Positions 24,242 through 55,952 of a stretch of DNA of 64,000 nucleotides are shown piece after piece. The stretch lies in IMG/VR virus record IMGVR_UViG_3300047547_000167, positions 28,928-92,927 of that record. One strand, 5' to 3'. This DNA is from a virus. Under the pieces are notes generated by a model, which was given only the letters and a program-made list of their open reading frames with translations, had not been told where the DNA came from and searched no databases. The translations under genes were made by a program, and so were the position numbers. Numbering within the stretch: position 1 is the stretch's first letter; the number at the start of each line of letters is the position of its first letter.

Positions 24242-24273
24242 CGAGCCGCGTCGGTCTGAGATCACGCGGCCGA

Positions 24274-24561
24274 TTACACCAGCCCGGAGGCGTCCAGCAA
24301 TCCGGCGACCGCTAGGGTGGCCACAGCAGGCAAGGCCCAATCGAGGATGGCCTTTTGGTTCCAGGCCCTAGCCTGTCGAAGCGGCGCGAACGCGGGCATG
24401 CTGGACCGCTTGCCACCGTAGTAGTGCTCAATCAAACGGTACTCGGCCTGGGCGTATTCGCGCCCCACGAAGTACCAAGCCCCCGCAGCTGCTCCAACCC
24501 ACCATCCGAAGACTGGGGCTGTGCAGAGCTGGATAAAGATGGCGAGCGGGACGTGGTGCAT
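24274..24561 (-). CDS. small membrane protein
   Basis: A 95-residue protein with hydrophobic stretches at about 5-33 (LAIFIQLCTAPVFGWWVGAAAGAWYFVG) and 73-93 (WALPAVATLAVAGLLDASG). A conserved-looking VGREYAQAEYRLIEHYYGG with basic residues lies between. Such two-helix proteins are common next to phage fibre genes. Roles in exclusion or surface modification have been suggested for relatives, but none is shown. It starts immediately after the upstream stop. Confidence 0.6.
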   Translation of the reverse strand: MHHVPLAIFIQLCTAPVFGWWVGAAAGAWYFVGREYAQAEYRLIEHYYGGKRSSMPAFAPLRQARAWNQKAILDWALPAVATLAVAGLLDASGLV

Positions 24562-24771
24562 TTACTCACCGTTTTGCTGATGTGTTTTTGGACAGATCAC
24601 ATCTTGATTTGTCATGACCCGCGCCTTAGCAGTCTCCGCATGCGGAGACTGGCTAGATTTGCCAATCTCTGAGTTGATGTGGGCAAACAATGGCGCTGCA
24701 AGGTGATAAGGCAGTTGCTGCAACGCCTTATCAATGATTGCGAGTTGGTCCTGCGTGAATGTAATGTTCAT
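24562..24771 (-). CDS. hypothetical small protein
   Basis: A 69-residue protein. The ATG at 24771 is preferred to one at 24783 because AGGAAAG precedes it at the right distance. MNITFTQDQLAIIDKALQQLPYHLAAPLFAHINSEI is a helical core common among small phage ORFs of unknown role; the remainder is polar. It lies downstream of the first copy of the 26-bp repeat and its promoter-like element, in a locally AT-rich patch. Confidence 0.5.
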   Translation of the reverse strand: MNITFTQDQLAIIDKALQQLPYHLAAPLFAHINSEIGKSSQSPHAETAKARVMTNQDVICPKTHQQNGE

Positions 24772-24820
24772 TTCTTTCCTCATGCGTTGTAAATTGATAC
24801 TTTGATAGTGTACTATTAAT

Positions 24821-24846
24821 TTTTAGTGTTGCATCACGACGAGGTT
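24821..24846. repeat. 26-bp direct repeat, copy 1
   Basis: Identical over 26 bp to 26259-26284, beginning TTTTAGTGTTGCATCACGAC on the + strand. The two copies bound the 463-residue fibre gene. The - strand of the repeat encodes the peptide end NLVVMQH plus stop in one frame, which is intact in copy 2 and only a remnant here. Confidence 0.9.
24825..24839 (-). promoter_or_regulatory. promoter-like element within repeat copy 1
   Basis: TCGTGAT-GC-AACACT on the - strand. It is part of the direct repeat, so it is not an independent instance. It would serve the small 24771 gene after a leader of about 45 nt. Confidence 0.45.
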
Positions 24847-48460: not shown

Positions 48461-51400
48461 CTAAAACAAACCCTGTTGATCAGACTGCGCAGCAGCACGG
48501 CGCGCAGCAATTGCGCCAGCCACACCGGTGTCATCCAGGCCGTCCAGCGGTGAAGCCATCATATTCTTGAGCCCGTACTTGCGGTCGAGGCGCTCGCGGC
48601 TGCGGCGTTCCTCCGGGTGGTCACCCTGCAGGTCGATCAGCTCCACGCCCTTCTTCTGTCCCAGCCGGTGAATGCGGGCATTCCGCTGGCTGTGAGTTTT
48701 TGCGGTTTGGCTGATGTCGTGCTGGATCAGGAACTGGCCCGATTGAAGGTTCATACCCACGGCACCAGCGTCGGACGCAATCAGCACGTCGGCCTGCGCC
48801 TCGCCCTGTTCCGGGTTGAACATGCGGCGCTTGGCATCCTTCTCCTTGGCGCTGTCCGCCCCCGTGATGACCACGACGCGCCGCCCGGCCTTCTCCATGG
48901 CTGCCTTGTACTGGTTCACGGCCTCGCGGTTGCGGGCAAAGATCACGCCTTGCTTGCCCGGCCGAGCCTGCACCATCTCCACCGCACGCTGCACCTTGGC
49001 GTTGTCGGGGTGGGTGTTGATGACGCGGTTCACCGCCGACGACTTGAGCATGCCCACGGCTTTCTGGAGCTTGGAGGCCACGGCCTCGTGCTCCGCCTCG
49101 GGCACGCCATCAAACGAGCCAGGCGAAATGTGGCGCACGGCCTCCACGTCCACCTTGCCAGCGCGCTGCGCCAGGCGCGCGCGGGCCAGGTGCTTGTCGA
49201 GCTCGCCCAGCGCCTGCTGCTGCCCCTTGGACAGCGGCACGGTCTCCGTGCTGCGGCTGACAGCCACGTCGGGCGTGATGGAGGTCGGGAAGACGTAGCG
49301 GGCCATTTCCCGCTGCAGCGCCTCCTTGCTGGCAATGGTGTCGGCGCCGTAGCGACGCATGAAGGCCGCCCTGTCGCCGTACCGCTGCGGGTCCATCTTT
49401 TGCAGCATCGAGTGAATCTCGCTGGCGTCGTTCTTCACGGGGTCGCCTGACGAAAGCACGTGGTACGGGGTGTGGTGGCCGACCGCCTCGATGACGTTGG
49501 CCAGGCTGGAATTTTCCTTTCCAGCGCGATTCAGGGTGTCGTGGGACTCGTCCACAAACGAGGCGTCGAAGTTGATACCCTCCTTGGCCATCACACCGGC
49601 CACCCACTCGCGCCGCTGGTCGGTGCTCATGCCCTGCAGCTTCGCCGTCATGGCGCCCTCGTCAATCCCGGCATGCTTGGCCCCGAGGTGCACCATGTCG
49701 TCGCGGAAGGATTGGTGGGTCATAACGCAGATGTGCGTGCCGGCATCCTTGTAGGCCGCGATGCGCTCGGACTGGCTCGCGCCGGGCTGAATGTGGGTCT
49801 TGAACTTGCCGGGCTCCAGCAGGCGCAGGGCCTCGCCGGAGAACTGCCCCTGCACGATGGACGGCACCATCATGATCGACCGCTTGACCTTGCCCATGCC
49901 GGACAGGTGCGCGTGGGCACCCAGCATCATGTTGGTCTTCCCCGACCCCGCCCCGGCGGCCAGCATGGCGCGCTTGTTGGCGGCCACCAGCTTGATCGCG
50001 CGCTGCTGGGCGGCGTACTTGCCCGACATGGACACGCCCCACAGCTTCGTGGGCTGGCCGGGTTTGAAGTTCTCGCCCACGTGGCCAACCATGGCCGCAA
50101 TCTGCCGCTCGGCGGCGTGCCCCAGGGTGTGGCGCTCGTCGGCCCCAAGCGGCGCAGGAGCGCCATCCTGGCCAGGCCCTGCGGCCTCCGGCGCATCCTC
50201 GGACGAGAAGAACCCCATCTGCGCCTGCTCGAACGCGGCCTGCTCCTGCTTGGCGGCGTCGATCTTGTCCGCCACCGAGCCGCTGGAATACTTGCCGCCC
50301 ACCCGGTTGCGCAGCCGGTCCACCAACTCCTTGTCCTTCGCCAGCCGGGCCTCGCGGGCCGCAGGGTCCACGGCGTCCAGGTGGTTGAGGTTGTTTCGGA
50401 TGGTGCGCTTGCCCAGCTTCATGGGCGCGTCGGGGTTGAGCTTGTTGTGAGCCTCCACAAACGAGCTGGCCATCTTCGAGCGAATGACGTCCTGCACTGC
50501 CTCGTAGGCGCGCTCGTTGCCGCCCATGGTCTTCAGGTACTTGGACCACGTGAGGCTGCTGGCATTGAGCTTGGCGGCCAGGCCGTCGCGGTGCGCCTTC
50601 CAGTCCTGCCAGTCGGGATTCGGCACGGTGTCCCCGAACATATCGGTGGACTCCTTCTCGGGCTCGCTGGCGACGTGTTCCTCCAACTCCTTGCGCATGG
50701 CGCCAGCGGCGGCATCCTCGCGGGCGATGTGGCGGTAGAAGTGATCGCGCAGGGCGGCCTGGTCCTTGTTGGTCAGCTCGCCGATTTGCTTGTAGGCGGC
50801 GGTGCCCTCCGGGGTTTCAGCCAGGGCGCGGTGGAGCGCGTCCACCGATTGCTGGTCAATCTGGAATTTCTGCCGATTGAGCGTGGTGCGCTCGCCCCCC
50901 AGGGCGGCCACGTGGTCGTCGGCGTACTTGTCGAAGGTGTCGGCCAGCGCCTCGGCGCGCTGCTGCTTGCCGTCCGCGCCCTTCAGTGGGGCCACGGCAT
51001 CCAGCGCCGCCCGGTATTCCTCCGCGCGCCCCGCCCCGACCTTTTGGAAGAAGTCGGCGGATTGCACGTCGGACAGGATATCGGCTGGCGCATCGCCGTC
51101 GGCGGCACGCGCCCCAATGTAGGTCTTCAGGCTTGCCTTCAGGTCTTCACCGGCCTGGAACGGCTGCGCCATGCGCTCGGCCACGCCCGGCTTCACGTCC
51201 ATGACCATGTCGGGGCGATTGGCAACCCCCATGGGCAGCCAGCCATCCTCGTCGTGGTCGCCGCGCATGATCGCCAGGTTGCGCCGCACCTGGGCAATGT
51301 CTTCGCGCGCAACGGGCCTGGCCAGGCGCGACATGCCCGCAGGCGTGACCGTGAGGAACGTGTCGCCACCGACCTTCTCCAACTCGTAGTCGCCGGGCTG

Positions 51401-53011
51401 GAGCCCAATGGCGCGAACCTGTGTGATCGCAGCCTCGGGCGACGTGTTCCCCAGGGAAACCTGGAAGTCGCCCGACCCGGGGCCCTTCATGGCCACCACG
51501 AGCGCGGCGTTGGCCTCCATCTCGCCCAGGGCTTGCCCCAGGATGCGCTGGGCATCCCCGACGGCGGCACGACGGCGCGAATTCAGCTCCTGCGCCACGG
51601 CCAGGTCCGCCCCGGTTTTGGCCTCGTCGGAGAGGTCGATGGCGGCGGCCGCGTCGGTCAGCTCCCGCGCCTGCTTCAGCGCCTTGGTGCTGGTGGTCAT
51701 GTAGTGGTTGACGTGCCAGTCCTGGATGCCCTCGGCAACGTGCTGCACCTCGTCGGGGTTGAGGTCGGCGTGCAGGCGACGCGCCAGCACCTGGGCGGCA
51801 CCGGCCACCCCCAGCACGTCCACAACGGAGCGATCCACCAGGGCGTCGCCCCCCACGGCCATGGCCAGGGCGTTGATGCTGTTGTAAGCGCCAACCCCCA
51901 TGTGCCCCCCCAGGGTCTCGTTCGGCTGAGCCCCGGCGATCTTGCCGACCTCGGACAAGAACGCCCGCGTCTGGGCGGTGCGCAGGTCGTTCTTCAAGTC
52001 TTCCTGCACCGAGGCGTCCACATCGTCCGTGGTTTCCAGGACGAAGGCCTTGGGCTCCACGGGTGACTTGTCCACATCGGCATTGGCCTCGCGGGCGGCC
52101 TTTTCGATGAGGGCCAGCTTCTTGCCCTCCTTCACCAGATCGAGTGCGTCCTTGGCCGACAACAGGCTGGCGTCGGCTTTTGGGGCTGCGGGCTCTTTGA
52201 TGCCCGCCAGCTCCTGCTTGATCAGTTTGGCCGCGTCGCCCTTGGCCAGCGCCTTCTGCCGTTGCTCGGGTGTCATGCCGCCGGTTTTGACCTCCGACGC
52301 CTCGGCTTCGAGTTTGTCCTGCGACAGCCCAGCGGCCTCGGCGCGGCCCTTGTAGTCGGCCTGGAACCCCAGCCCGGCGCCAGGCGGGCGAACGGGGTCA
52401 AGGTCAGCGGCGGCAATCTCGTCGGGCGAATCGGAGAACAGCGGCACCTCGCCCACGCCTGCCTCTTCGCGCGCGGCGGGGCTTATCACCAGCATTTGAC
52501 GGCTCTGCTGGATCACTTCCTTGGCTTTGCTGAGCAGGTCGCGGTGGAACTTCGAGCGCACCTTGTCGCGTGCGGATTCGGACAAGTGCTCGTAGTCGGC
52601 CTCGGGGAACTCCAGCTCTTCCGGCGCCCATCCGGCCTTTTTCGCCACAGCGTTGATGACCGATTGCTCGGCCTTTTTGCGCTGCTCGGCAATGTCCTTG
52701 CGGACCTGCTCCTTGGCGCCATGGATGCCAGCGGCCTTGTCGGCGGCGATCTGCTCCTTGCGGGCCGCACGCTTGTCTGCGGCCTTTTTCCCAGCCTCAG
52801 CCTTGTAATCCGAGTGCGACTTGACCCCGCGCAGCTTGAGGTAATTCAGGCTCCCTCCAGCGCCGCCAATGACGCGAGCGGAGCCGTCCGGGTGCGGCTG
52901 GATGAGCACAGCCTGACCCTTCGACCCCGGCCCGTTGGGATGGACTGTTATCCAATGGGCGTCAGCCGGAATTGCGTCGGCCTTGATGAGAAGTCGTGGG
53001 ATTTGCCGCAT
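48461..53011 (-). CDS. giant protein with C-terminal SNF2-type helicase
   Basis: A 1516-residue protein inside the head gene cluster. The N-terminal 1000 residues are charged, helical and Ala/Glu/Lys-rich with no named domain visible; a short N-terminal piece (HPNGPGSKGQAVLIQPHPDGSARVIGGAGG) resembles N-termini of phage head proteins. The C-terminal 500 residues are an SF2/SNF2-like motor: Walker A AAGAGSGKT near 1020, the VDESHD box near 1154, GVIFARNREAVNQYK, DAGAVGMNLQSGQFLIQHD and the SQRNARIHRLGQKKG motif VI near 1443. It is probably packaged or head-associated, as with P1 DarB-like proteins. The start is leaderless-type. Confidence 0.85.
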   Translation of the reverse strand: MRQIPRLLIKADAIPADAHWITVHPNGPGSKGQAVLIQPHPDGSARVIGGAGGSLNYLKLRGVKSHSDYKAEAGKKAADKRAARKEQIAADKAAGIHGAKEQVRKDIAEQRKKAEQSVINAVAKKAGWAPEELEFPEADYEHLSESARDKVRSKFHRDLLSKAKEVIQQSRQMLVISPAAREEAGVGEVPLFSDSPDEIAAADLDPVRPPGAGLGFQADYKGRAEAAGLSQDKLEAEASEVKTGGMTPEQRQKALAKGDAAKLIKQELAGIKEPAAPKADASLLSAKDALDLVKEGKKLALIEKAAREANADVDKSPVEPKAFVLETTDDVDASVQEDLKNDLRTAQTRAFLSEVGKIAGAQPNETLGGHMGVGAYNSINALAMAVGGDALVDRSVVDVLGVAGAAQVLARRLHADLNPDEVQHVAEGIQDWHVNHYMTTSTKALKQARELTDAAAAIDLSDEAKTGADLAVAQELNSRRRAAVGDAQRILGQALGEMEANAALVVAMKGPGSGDFQVSLGNTSPEAAITQVRAIGLQPGDYELEKVGGDTFLTVTPAGMSRLARPVAREDIAQVRRNLAIMRGDHDEDGWLPMGVANRPDMVMDVKPGVAERMAQPFQAGEDLKASLKTYIGARAADGDAPADILSDVQSADFFQKVGAGRAEEYRAALDAVAPLKGADGKQQRAEALADTFDKYADDHVAALGGERTTLNRQKFQIDQQSVDALHRALAETPEGTAAYKQIGELTNKDQAALRDHFYRHIAREDAAAGAMRKELEEHVASEPEKESTDMFGDTVPNPDWQDWKAHRDGLAAKLNASSLTWSKYLKTMGGNERAYEAVQDVIRSKMASSFVEAHNKLNPDAPMKLGKRTIRNNLNHLDAVDPAAREARLAKDKELVDRLRNRVGGKYSSGSVADKIDAAKQEQAAFEQAQMGFFSSEDAPEAAGPGQDGAPAPLGADERHTLGHAAERQIAAMVGHVGENFKPGQPTKLWGVSMSGKYAAQQRAIKLVAANKRAMLAAGAGSGKTNMMLGAHAHLSGMGKVKRSIMMVPSIVQGQFSGEALRLLEPGKFKTHIQPGASQSERIAAYKDAGTHICVMTHQSFRDDMVHLGAKHAGIDEGAMTAKLQGMSTDQRREWVAGVMAKEGINFDASFVDESHDTLNRAGKENSSLANVIEAVGHHTPYHVLSSGDPVKNDASEIHSMLQKMDPQRYGDRAAFMRRYGADTIASKEALQREMARYVFPTSITPDVAVSRSTETVPLSKGQQQALGELDKHLARARLAQRAGKVDVEAVRHISPGSFDGVPEAEHEAVASKLQKAVGMLKSSAVNRVINTHPDNAKVQRAVEMVQARPGKQGVIFARNREAVNQYKAAMEKAGRRVVVITGADSAKEKDAKRRMFNPEQGEAQADVLIASDAGAVGMNLQSGQFLIQHDISQTAKTHSQRNARIHRLGQKKGVELIDLQGDHPEERRSRERLDRKYGLKNMMASPLDGLDDTGVAGAIAARRAAAQSDQQGLF

Positions 53012-53064: not shown

Positions 53065-53448
53065 ATGAATTGTGTGCTCTTACGCTGCGCCGCACAAGAA
53101 CAGGGGGGGCAAAGGGTGGGGAACGACAATCGCGCTCGGATTGAGCGCGCCGAGAGGTATGCAAAGTCGGACGAGGGGGTGAACGCGAGCCTTGGTGAGA
53201 TGGCGGAATGCGCATGCATGAGCCGCTTTCACTTCGCCCGCGTTTTTCGTGACGTTACAGGCAAGACTCCGATGGAGTACGTGCTCGAACAGAAGATCGA
53301 GTGCGCCAAGAGGCGGCTGGCCACGGGGCGCTGCAGTATCGCAGCCGTCGCGGCGTTGTGTGGGTTTTCAGACCAGTCCCACATGACGCGGGTGTTTAGG
53401 CGCAACCAGGGAGAAACCCCGGCGCAATTCAAGCGCCGCCAAGAATAG
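53065..53448 (+). CDS. lone AraC/XylS-type DNA-binding domain
   Basis: A 127-residue protein consisting of the two HTH motifs of AraC-family regulators and almost nothing else. LGEMAECACMSRFHFARVFRDVTGKTPMEYVLEQKIECAKRRL is followed by SIAAVAALCGFSDQSHMTRVFRRNQGETPAQFKRRQE. The ligand-binding domain is absent. It is on the + strand between two - strand head genes and overlaps the MuF gene end by 20 bp. It may be a transcription activator of phage or host genes. ATG 53065 follows GAGA; upstream in-frame starts run into the opposite gene. Confidence 0.82.
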   Translation: MNCVLLRCAAQEQGGQRVGNDNRARIERAERYAKSDEGVNASLGEMAECACMSRFHFARVFRDVTGKTPMEYVLEQKIECAKRRLATGRCSIAAVAALCGFSDQSHMTRVFRRNQGETPAQFKRRQE

Positions 53449-54586
53449 CGCGAAGCTCATCCCCGAACGCCGGATCGTCGCCGGGGGCGTCCTCGATCAC
53501 GGGCACCCAACGGCCACGGCAGTGCGGGTGGGCCAGCCCGGCTGGGATTTGCCACATCTCGTCAGGCTCGCGGTCCACCAGCACGTCGCCGACGCGCTTC
53601 TTCGGAGAGGCAGAACGGCCCACGTTGTTCTTTCCCGGCCAGATCATGGTGTCGGGGTTTTTGTCCGGGCGGTCGGCGGCGACAACCGTGACCACGCGGC
53701 CATCGATGCTGCGGCAGAAGGCGCACGCGCCCTCGTACCGCTCCACGCGCTGGACCTTGGTGCCGGGCTTCAGGCTGGCGATGTAGCCCTGCAGCTGGGC
53801 CTCGCCCGCCTCGGTGACGGCGATGCGCCGCCAGTCCCGATTGAGGGCGCCGAACTCGTCCAGCAGCTTGGTCTCCAGGCTGCTGGTGCCCGGCGGCAGG
53901 TTGCCCAGAGCCCGCTGCTCCAGATCGGCGACTACCACGGCGCGCAGGCGGTGGCGGGTGTTGTCGGACAGGGCCTGAACGTGCTCGGCTGCGCGGGCGC
54001 GGGCGAACGTGAGCACGGCCTGGGTGGCTGCCGACAACGCGGTGGCCTGCGCAGCCGACGAAGGCAGTGCCGCCAGGATGGCGTCGGCCTGCTTGGCGGT
54101 TGGCGTCTTGCCTTCGAGATTGGCCTGCACCTTCCCCATCATCGTGGCCTTTGTGGCGAGCCAGTCGGCCTCGGCCACCAGCTCGCCAGCGGGCAGGTGT
54201 CGCTGCACCACGTACTCGATGGCGAGAAGGTGGTCGTCCAGCGTCCAGACGGCGGGCGGCAGGCTTTCCAGGTACAGGCGGGCCAGGGACAGCTCGGCCT
54301 CGTTCCAGCGGGAAAGCATGCCGGGCGGTGTGGGCTGGATGGATGCGGTGGGGGTGTGATTCGCGCCAGACTGCCAGGCCAGCAGCTGCTGGTGCACGGC
54401 ATCCAAGCGGGCCAGGCCGCGCTCGGTAAACAGCTCGATCAGGCGGCGCACCAGGGGGGAATCGTGGGGCTTCCAGATGCCGTCCTTCCCGTGGTCGTGG
54501 CCGTCGGAAAGCGCTTTGTAGAGCCCCTCCAGCATGTCGTTGGTGGCGCGGATCGGGACGTGCAGCAGGTCGAGGAATAAGCCCAT
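53429..54586 (-). CDS. MuF-type head morphogenesis protein
   Basis: A 385-residue minor head protein of the SPP1 gp7/Mu gpF family. The C-terminal part has the hallmark order RRIAVTEAGEAQLQGYIASLKPGTKVQRVERYEGACAFCRSIDG and HPHCRGRWVPV (the GACAFC...HPHC signature). The N-terminus is long and helical. MuF proteins are injected or help portal and capsid assembly. The ATG at 54586 is 6 nt after a promoter-type hexamer without a ribosome-binding site. Confidence 0.9.
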   Translation of the reverse strand: MGLFLDLLHVPIRATNDMLEGLYKALSDGHDHGKDGIWKPHDSPLVRRLIELFTERGLARLDAVHQQLLAWQSGANHTPTASIQPTPPGMLSRWNEAELSLARLYLESLPPAVWTLDDHLLAIEYVVQRHLPAGELVAEADWLATKATMMGKVQANLEGKTPTAKQADAILAALPSSAAQATALSAATQAVLTFARARAAEHVQALSDNTRHRLRAVVVADLEQRALGNLPPGTSSLETKLLDEFGALNRDWRRIAVTEAGEAQLQGYIASLKPGTKVQRVERYEGACAFCRSIDGRVVTVVAADRPDKNPDTMIWPGKNNVGRSASPKKRVGDVLVDREPDEMWQIPAGLAHPHCRGRWVPVIEDAPGDDPAFGDELRAILGGA

Positions 54587-54592
54587 CCGGGC

Positions 54593-54607
54593 AGTGTCGC
54601 GTCACGA
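54593..54607 (-). promoter_or_regulatory. dispersed late promoter element directly after a terminator
   Basis: TCGTGAC-GC-GACACT, GCCCGG, ATG of the MuF gene. It starts two bases after the T-run of the terminator at 54609-54636. Confidence 0.75.
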
Positions 54608-54608
54608 C

Positions 54609-54636
54609 AAAAAAAAACCCGGCGCAAGGCCGGGTT
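54609..54636 (-). terminator. intrinsic terminator upstream of the MuF gene
   Basis: Perfect 8-bp stem AACCCGGC / GCCGGGTT, 5-nt loop and a run of T (54617-54609) on the - strand. Confidence 0.92.
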
Positions 54637-54868
54637 CAAAACTCCGGCCCAGGGAGGAAAGGCCGGCCACCTGTAGAGTGGAAGGTCGGCAGCCTGCCGC
54701 ACGGGGCATGGAGCCCACTACGGCGGCAGTGCGTGCCAGATTTGGCACCGGGAGCCTTTCACCCAGTTGGCTTGTCGCGGCTCTCACGCGCATCAGCCGG
54801 GAAACCCCAGCCTGCCGGTTACGCTATCCGGCCCCGTGACGAGCAACTGAACTGCTCGCTGGTCGGCG
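54609..54868 (-). ncRNA. candidate structured non-coding RNA, module B
   Basis: About 260 nt without a convincing gene on either strand. On the - strand it starts near a TATAGT box (54880-54875) and ends at the strong terminator. Visible hairpins are CGAGCA/TGCTCG (54858-54840), GCCGG/CCGGC (54832-54814), GTGCCA/TGGCAC (54748-54733), CGGCA/TGCCG (54699-54687) and CCGGCC/GGCCGG (54666-54645). The density of perfect stems exceeds that of flanking genes. The -35 region is poor. Could be a trans-acting phage RNA or a long leader. Confidence 0.5.
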
Positions 54869-54913
54869 GAACGAACTATACAACAACTTTATCGGCGCGG
54901 TGCGTCCACCACG

Positions 54914-54948
54914 AAAAAATGGTGGCGTGCTACCAACACGCCACCATT
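54914..54948 (-). terminator. intrinsic terminator upstream of module B
   Basis: Perfect 12-bp stem AATGGTGGCGTG / CACGCCACCATT, 7-nt loop and T-run on the - strand. It would end transcripts coming from the surface-protein genes to the right. Confidence 0.9.
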
Positions 54949-55080
54949 CTCACCCACCATTCGACTACGGGCGAACCCGCTGGCGGGAGCGTTTTCAGCG
55001 CATCTGCCTCCGACTGTTACCAGCCGAGGAACCCGGCTGCGCGGGTTGAAAGTTCTCCCGGCGGCTTAGCCCCCGCCGGA
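54914..55080 (-). ncRNA. candidate structured RNA, module A (attenuator-like)
   Basis: A gene-free segment of 167 nt after the 73-residue gene. On the - strand: hairpin CCGGCGG/CCGCCGG, then two mutually exclusive hairpins sharing CAGCCGGGTT (AACCCG/CGGGTT or CAGCCG/CGGCTG), a purine-rich stretch and finally a strong terminator. Alternative pairings before a terminator are typical of attenuators or RNA-based antitermination sites. The opposite strand holds a low-quality ORF that I reject. Confidence 0.4.
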
Positions 55081-55100
55081 CCTGCCAGACTTCAGGCGTT

Positions 55101-55322
55101 CTAGGGCGTGCTGCTGATTCCAAGGAGCATCAAAATGAGCGCCTCTTCCTCCTGTTGCCGGCGCTTTCGCGCCAGCGATGTGCTGCTGATTCCGGTGCTC
55201 GACGTGCTTGTTGGGCCCCAGTCGTAAACGGTCGCGGGCGGCAGCGGCTCTGGCACGGCCAGCATCCGGCCAAATGAATTGCCGAATGCCTTGCCAAACG
55301 ACAGGCCCCATGCTGAAGCCAT
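55101..55322 (-). CDS. small conserved-looking head-region protein
   Basis: A 73-residue protein (ASAWGLSFGKAFGNSFGRMLAVPEPLPP, then a Ser/Thr segment and RKRRQQEEEALILMLLGISSTP). The N-terminal SFGKAFGNSFG pattern is common in small phage structural ORFs. The ATG follows the TAA of the preceding gene directly. The repeat GISST appears twice (near 44-48 and 68-72), encoded by a short direct DNA repeat. Function unknown. Confidence 0.6.
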   Translation of the reverse strand: MASAWGLSFGKAFGNSFGRMLAVPEPLPPATVYDWGPTSTSSTGISSTSLARKRRQQEEEALILMLLGISSTP

Positions 55323-55952
55323 TTAAGCACCCGGGCCCCAGGGGTCCGTGTCGCTACCCGTCCCACCCAGCTCCTGTCCTCTGACTTGCACCATGTTGAC
55401 CGGCAGCGGTGCCGCCTGCAGGGCCGCAACCACGGCAGCGACGATCTGCACCAGGCCAGGGTCGAGGCTTTCCGTGAGGCTGCGCTGCGCAGCACTCCAC
55501 ACGGCAGAGGCTGTCTGCTCCGGCGTGAGCGCCGTGCCCGTGACCACGTTCTGATAGCTCACCGAGTTGTTCACCAGCGCCGAAACCGTGGCTGGGTAGA
55601 TGGGCTGGCCATCGGCGGCCCAGTACGCGGTCTCGTAGTCGTCCGAATAGAGCACGCCGGTCACGCGAACCTTGTTCATGTCGATGATCAGCTTCCAGCC
55701 GTTCTGCAGGAAGTAGATCAGGCCCGAGCGACCGCCAGGAATGGAGTCGTAGCCCGTGCGGCGCATGGCCAGCGTGTGGTAGTCGTTCCCGGGCAGCGCA
55801 GCCCAATCCACCCAACGCGACCACACATCGGTCTGGAGGTTGAGGGTGGTCACGTCGCTGTTGACGGTGATCGTGCGCGCCAGGCCGTTGAAGGCGACCT
55901 TTTTGTTTTGCGCCCACTCGGCCCCCCAGGCGCCCCAGACTAGAGCGGCCAT
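55323..55952 (-). CDS. virion-associated surface protein
   Basis: A 209-residue protein. KVAFNGLARTITVNSDVTTLNLQTDVWSRWVDWAALPGNDYHTLAMRRTGYDSIPGGRSGLIYFLQNGWKLIIDMNKVRVTGVLYSDDYETAYW reads as a beta-sandwich with an interaction surface. The C-terminal part is helical and Ala/Leu-rich. It follows the 453-residue protein with 3 bp between and is probably part of the same appendage system. Family unknown to me. Confidence 0.6.
   Translation of the reverse strand: MAALVWGAWGAEWAQNKKVAFNGLARTITVNSDVTTLNLQTDVWSRWVDWAALPGNDYHTLAMRRTGYDSIPGGRSGLIYFLQNGWKLIIDMNKVRVTGVLYSDDYETAYWAADGQPIYPATVSALVNNSVSYQNVVTGTALTPEQTASAVWSAAQRSLTESLDPGLVQIVAAVVAALQAAPLPVNMVQVRGQELGGTGSDTDPWGPGA

Follow-up and report, generated by a model that had tools for sequence, protein, structure and literature searches.

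The window, a stretch of 64,000 nucleotides from a virus record 92,927 bases long, contains on its minus strand an interval between a 73-aa open reading frame ending at 55101 and a minor-head (gpF-like) gene at 53429-54586. Virion-structural and other genes lie upstream of this interval, and in named relatives the minor-head gene is found between the portal gene and the capsid protease. The first-pass annotation had flagged 54609-54880 as a gene-free stretch adjoining head genes and carrying a probable novel non-coding RNA with its own -10 box and terminator. The absence of genes was borne out, as was the head gene directly downstream in the same direction, but the limits were not: the non-coding stretch is longer, running from about 55107, and a further conserved RNA and a further terminator (54948-54918) lie within it. 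The flagged RNA is called here RNA2 and its neighbor RNA1. The interval and its flank comprise:

54953-55107, minus strand: RNA1, about 155 nt, with two predicted pseudoknots (covariance model R1, 139.9 bits)
54918-54948, minus strand: predicted terminator of RNA1 and the upstream operon, a 12-bp perfect stem followed by a U run
54875-54880, minus strand: -10 box of RNA2, TATAGT, with no -35 match
54609-54868, minus strand: RNA2, the flagged candidate non-coding RNA, about 260 nt
54644-54666, minus strand: anti-Shine-Dalgarno (anti-SD) hairpin, loop UUUCCUCCCU (54660-54651) on the stem CCGGCC/GGCCGG
54609-54637, minus strand: intrinsic terminator of RNA2, a 9-pair stem followed by nine U
54593-54607, minus strand: predicted phage promoter motif TCGTGACGCGACACT of the minor-head operon, with the ATG 7 nt later
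53429-54586, minus strand: minor-head gene, 385 aa, weak match to phrog_2662

The weak match of the 385-aa protein is to a head-and-packaging family, and the annotation of one relative reads "putative minor head protein". At the start of RNA2, the TATAGT box was confirmed by direct reading, and the sequence GTxGTATAGTT around it is invariant in all four phages compared. A consensus scan found no two-hexamer promoter here and no -35 box to go with 54875-54880, and the start point of RNA2 was placed from the position of the -10 box. Its terminator ranked strongest among 12 terminator-like sites in the surrounding 14 kb. RNA2 is isolated on both sides, since a terminator stands upstream (54948-54918) and a phage promoter motif downstream, and it would constitute a transcription unit of its own.

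The downstream motif belongs to a set of eight copies of TCGTGACNNNANACT (one mismatch allowed) in the window, at 54593, 53018, 47378, 32107, 26263, 24825, 24227 and 19262, all on the minus strand, against 0.54 expected. At 54593, 53018, 47378 and 32107 the ATG of the next gene follows after exactly 7 nt. Among 88 relatives, a set reduced for near-duplicates, the spacing from CGTGA to the ATG of the minor-head gene is exactly 20 nt in 47, and only 8 have an SD-like stretch. The simplest reading is that the motif with its fixed ATG spacing is a phage promoter giving a leaderless mRNA. RNA2 immediately precedes the minor-head gene and shares its orientation, as would be expected if it served the head operon as a 5' leader or attenuator, with read-through of the terminator setting head-gene expression. 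However, this reading leaves the promoter motif between terminator and gene, its spacing and the rarity of SD sequences unaccounted for, and many relatives lack RNA2 altogether. It was rejected because the gene has a separate promoter motif just downstream of RNA2 at a fixed distance from the ATG, and we regard it as very improbable. Two side observations were made along this strand. Directly behind the head gene, 48461-53011 (minus strand) encodes a protein of 1516 aa whose C terminus carries an SNF2/DEAD helicase domain; a large ORF in a like position in phage PHB04 is annotated as N-6 DNA methylase. The stretch 24242-24824, which looked gene-free, contained ordinary small genes on checking.

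Within RNA2, six perfect hairpins were counted at a stem length of at least 5, one more than first reported, against 2.4 expected; this count was reached in 5 of 300 dinucleotide shuffles. At a stem length of at least 6 there were four, against 0.73 expected (1 of 300 shuffles). The hairpins of the 5' domain are:

54840-54858, minus strand: H1, CGAGCA/TGCTCG
54814-54832, minus strand: H2, GCCGG-ATAGCGTAA-CCGGC
54795-54812, minus strand: H3, GGCTGGG-GTTT-CCCGGCT
54776-54790, minus strand: H4, loop UGARAGC
54747-54767, minus strand: H5, ACTGGG/CCCGGT
54733-54748, minus strand: H6, GTGCCA-AATC-TGGCAC

Taken as a whole, the flagged stretch has an only slightly lowered fold energy (z -2.2); its complement does no worse (z -2.6), and nothing unusual is seen for the 5' part by itself (z -0.24). 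Thus, the case for RNA2 rests on comparison with relatives, which were retrieved with the minor-head protein as query; searching phage records with the nucleotide sequence of the region gave chance matches only. RNA2 is present in at least four phages. The closest loci, L015 and L017, keep its start and end and have 300-400 nt of extra folded modules mid-way, and at the point of H6 relatives carry inserted modules of 100-400 nt. More distant, with a neighboring protein 66% identical, L022 retains the 5' part. A covariance model (R3) built from four 5' cores of 91-113 nt, that of the window among them, detects the core in L015, L017 and L022, in the last of these at the corresponding site, and finds a fifth, independent and partial copy in L033 (E 5e-7). 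Weaker R3 matches beyond L033, among them window 63174-63104, were taken as chance. Coding potential was dismissed, since relatives have large insertions and the reading frames are not kept.

Compensatory change in homologues, proposed by the first-pass annotation as a check, was found in the core hairpins H4 and H5: across five sequences 97.7% of cells pair, with 5 two-sided changes, a level of covariation that none of 500 shuffles reached and that slid versions do not show. The H4 loop UGARAGC, which we take to be T-loop-like by consensus, is kept while its stem varies (CGCG/CGCG, CGGU/ACCG, CAGG/CCUG), with 100% pairing and two-sided change in three of four pairs. H5 reads ACCCGG/CCGGGT in L022, and H1 reads CAAGCA/TGCTTG in L017, a change of one compensatory pair. 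As the sequence set is small and related, the covariation in these two hairpins is support rather than proof. A module of the form UGARAGCCCGNGC...GAGACGUAC is common to L018, L020, L034 and L071 and resembles H4 and H2 of RNA2. Were the stretch nothing but spacer DNA between two terminators with a chance -10 box, the ordinary fold energy of the 5' part would be as found, but not the conserved -10 box, the compensatory pairs, a hairpin count above chance, the core at the same site in L022 or the independent copy in L033. We consider that explanation improbable. Good support for a non-coding RNA that has a -10 box and a terminator of its own, as proposed, comes from the invariant box in four phages, the compensatory changes in five sequences, and the separate terminators and promoters delimiting the unit at either side, and RNA2 is very probably a genuine RNA gene.

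The adjacent RNA1, overlooked in the earlier annotation, is the stronger finding: comparative sequence evidence identifies it, with good support, as a structured RNA family. At its 5' end it runs into the final codons of the 73-aa ORF, and it recurs in about 35 phages, far more distant than those carrying RNA2. Comparison by hand of 23 copies gave five helices and two pseudoknots, the first between a 5' GCCC and the P2 loop GGGY, the second between the P1 loop GYCUG and a later CAGRC. A covariance model of nine sequences, limited to the nested helices, was run over 98 loci and gave matches with E 6e-41 to 7e-6. In an alignment (A4) of 34 distinct copies, 93.1% of cells are paired vs 71.3% in shuffles, two-sided changes occur at 36 of 41 pairs, and the covariation score is 0.546 vs 0.181 shuffled and at most 0.09 slid. 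The pseudoknot helices, which lie outside the model, are 97.5% and 92.9% paired, support that is not wholly independent because some of these sequences had already served to propose them. Compensatory change thus extends across the whole structure, pseudoknots included, as for a structured family of its own.

Isolates with RNA1 include Pseudomonas phages Dolphis and Jeremy (both of P. putida) and Touem01, Aeromonas phage ST4, Yersinia phage fHe-Yen8-01 and Enterobacter phage phiT5282EW, and the loci include L111, L112, L114, L115, L117, L118 and about 28 others. Model R2 found no RNA1 in Bordetella phage PHB04, Morganella phage Mecenats66 and many other group members, so RNA1 is not universal. 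A motif scan of IMG/VR yielded linked copies only, plus contig L120, which fails the model. Variant copies were seen at L058:1331-1470, L061:1725-1854 and L071:1522-1641, where the P2 loop is UUCG and the first pseudoknot is lost, and the second pseudoknot has exchanged strands (CCAGAU with AUCUGG). RNA1 usually starts within about 50 nt of the preceding stop codon, and by strict criteria a terminator follows in 15 of 34 copies vs about 6% in shuffles; from this arrangement, RNA1 may be set free from the transcript of the portal operon. It has no match among Rfam families. Specifically, phi29 pRNA gave nothing at the Rfam cut-off in the window, nor any match within 54500-55400 at E<=10. No description of RNA1 was found in the literature searched, which lay mostly outside subscription journals, and its novelty is likely, not certain.

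The interval that holds both RNAs is best described as an exchangeable, plastic phage RNA island at the junction of the portal and head operons, a context which had also gone unnoticed. In relatives the same interval carries tRNA-Met, tRNA-Gly, tRNA-Pro or tRNA-Tyr, and on the phage contig L034 a permuted tmRNA (1677-1927; RF04321, E 2e-16) lies beside tRNA-Met. In the window, Rfam and ARAGORN detected no tRNA or tmRNA. Several further modules were observed in the island. In L015, L017, L022, L024 and L045, modules of about 70-150 nt are enclosed by long inverted repeats CCATCA...TGATGG, and a similar module ending in CGTGTGGTG is found in L056, L058, L061 and L071. In the last ~250 nt before the minor-head gene, L031, L033, L034 and L045 share another conserved non-coding unit (TGCGGTTCATTCGGGATATAAAGGCCGCAG and CCGATACCGCGCGA) with its own TCGTGAC promoter and terminator; it occurs in phages with no detected RNA1, for which it may stand in.

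The earlier annotation could not match RNA2 to tmRNA, RNase P RNA, 6S RNA, a tRNA or a group I intron, and this was confirmed: none of these, nor GOLLD or ROOL, reached its Rfam cut-off in the window. Covariance search also qualified the claim of novelty, which holds for the 5' domain only. Although nothing in the window reached a cut-off, the last 61 nt of RNA2 match anti-hemB (RF02837) with E 2.9e-9 and 45.5 bits, short of the cut-off of 49.5 bits; because this 3' third is so close to a known RNA, RNA2 is only partly novel. The model is matched end to end (positions 1-81 at 54669-54609), covering the anti-SD hairpin and the terminator. Four phages, the window among them (G000, G038, G001, G037), match with E 7e-11 to 2e-9, and the relative L018 (record G039) passes the cut-off at 50.6 bits. 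Of 14 control genomes, 8 also gave weak matches, all short of the cut-off, which were not counted, and a plasmid search with the 3' module returned short weak matches only.

The loop UUUCCUCCCU is complementary to Shine-Dalgarno sequences. Hexamers of the CCUCCC type, common in GC-rich DNA, stand before the promoter in 10 of 69 loci vs 5.5 expected. The anti-SD hairpin is absent from L022 and L033, which retain the 5' core, and is therefore not essential to the RNA2 family. Pairing at the ribosome-binding site is how host sRNAs of the NfeR1 type, which have anti-SD loops, silence mRNAs (PMC10746234), and anti-hemB is listed as the expressed sRNA ncS04 in Burkholderia cenocepacia biofilms (PMC5688073).

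These data bear on a further explanation, that RNA2 serves a phage translation island as a stable structural RNA, much like the unexplained RNAs found next to phage tRNAs; in the window the island would have shrunk with the loss of tRNAs and modules, and the anti-SD hairpin would be incidental. The tRNAs and permuted tmRNA in relatives fit such an origin, as do the roughly 300 nt of additional modules at the same point in L015, whose neighboring protein is 98% identical, and the 5' cores conserved without the anti-SD end. Decay, however, would hardly leave promoter, core and terminator intact with compensatory change, and the anti-hemB-like module has been retained in phages whose middle parts are wholly different. 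We regard this explanation as unlikely.

The reading we put forward, with about even confidence, is that RNA2 is an independently transcribed, trans-acting non-coding RNA with an anti-SD 3' hairpin, a minimal version of the variable island between the portal and head operons. Transcription would run from the TATAGT box to 54609, and the head gene would be expressed from its separate promoter just downstream. Most likely acting in trans, RNA2 would use its loop UUUCCUCCCU to pair with host or phage mRNAs at their ribosome-binding sites and lower their translation, while its 5' hairpins might provide a stabilizing or protein-binding scaffold. The anti-SD action itself is proposed because the loop is complementary to SD sequences and host sRNAs with such loops silence mRNAs; we advance it tentatively. 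A broader scheme, in which the exchangeable island has an RNA1 core required in assembling heads, in packaging or in controlling the portal message, and RNA2 blocks SD-dependent translation from which leaderless head mRNAs escape, is speculative and, in our estimation, improbable.

Only 21 phage non-coding RNAs had been described according to a 2021 count (PMC8545117), and in a group of proteobacterial phages of ~90 kb one intergenic site adds two structured RNAs as candidates. RNA1, with strong comparative support, absent from Rfam and present in cultured phages, is testable at the bench. To judge by the anti-SD end of RNA2, phages may use riboregulator modules of host type, and the predicted leaderless head mRNAs beside it raise the testable question of how such phages would keep translating.

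Among known systems, anti-hemB (Burkholderia RNA 7) resembles the last ~60 nt of RNA2 in its UUCCUCCCU loop hairpin, a UUUG and a CCCGGC terminator; RNA2 differs in its unrelated 5' domain of about 200 nt and in a score (45.5 vs 49.5) below that family's cut-off. The anti-SD sRNAs cuckoo and alpha-r14/NfeR1 likewise have hairpin loops with an SD-complementary motif, and are defined by several hairpins, each with a CCUCCUCCC loop (PMC10746234). RNA2 has one such loop, UUUCCUCCCU, whereas they have three, CCUCCUCCC, and the bulk of RNA2 is something else, which places it outside this group. GOLLD and ROOL are structured phage RNAs found close to tRNA islands and contain pseudoknots or variable regions (PMC12286853). 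RNA1 and RNA2 are also structured phage RNAs at an island site that holds tRNAs in relatives, but they are smaller (about 155 and 260 nt, whereas many GOLLD members exceed 800 nt) and match neither family in Rfam. Lastly, the 3'-UTR-derived non-coding RNA of phiKZ (PHIKZ298), thought to be released from the transcript of its gene, is like RNA1 in being folded, directly behind a phage gene and ended by a terminator (PMC8545117). That RNA is about 100 nt long with two stem-loops and no comparative support described, whereas RNA1 has two covarying pseudoknots.
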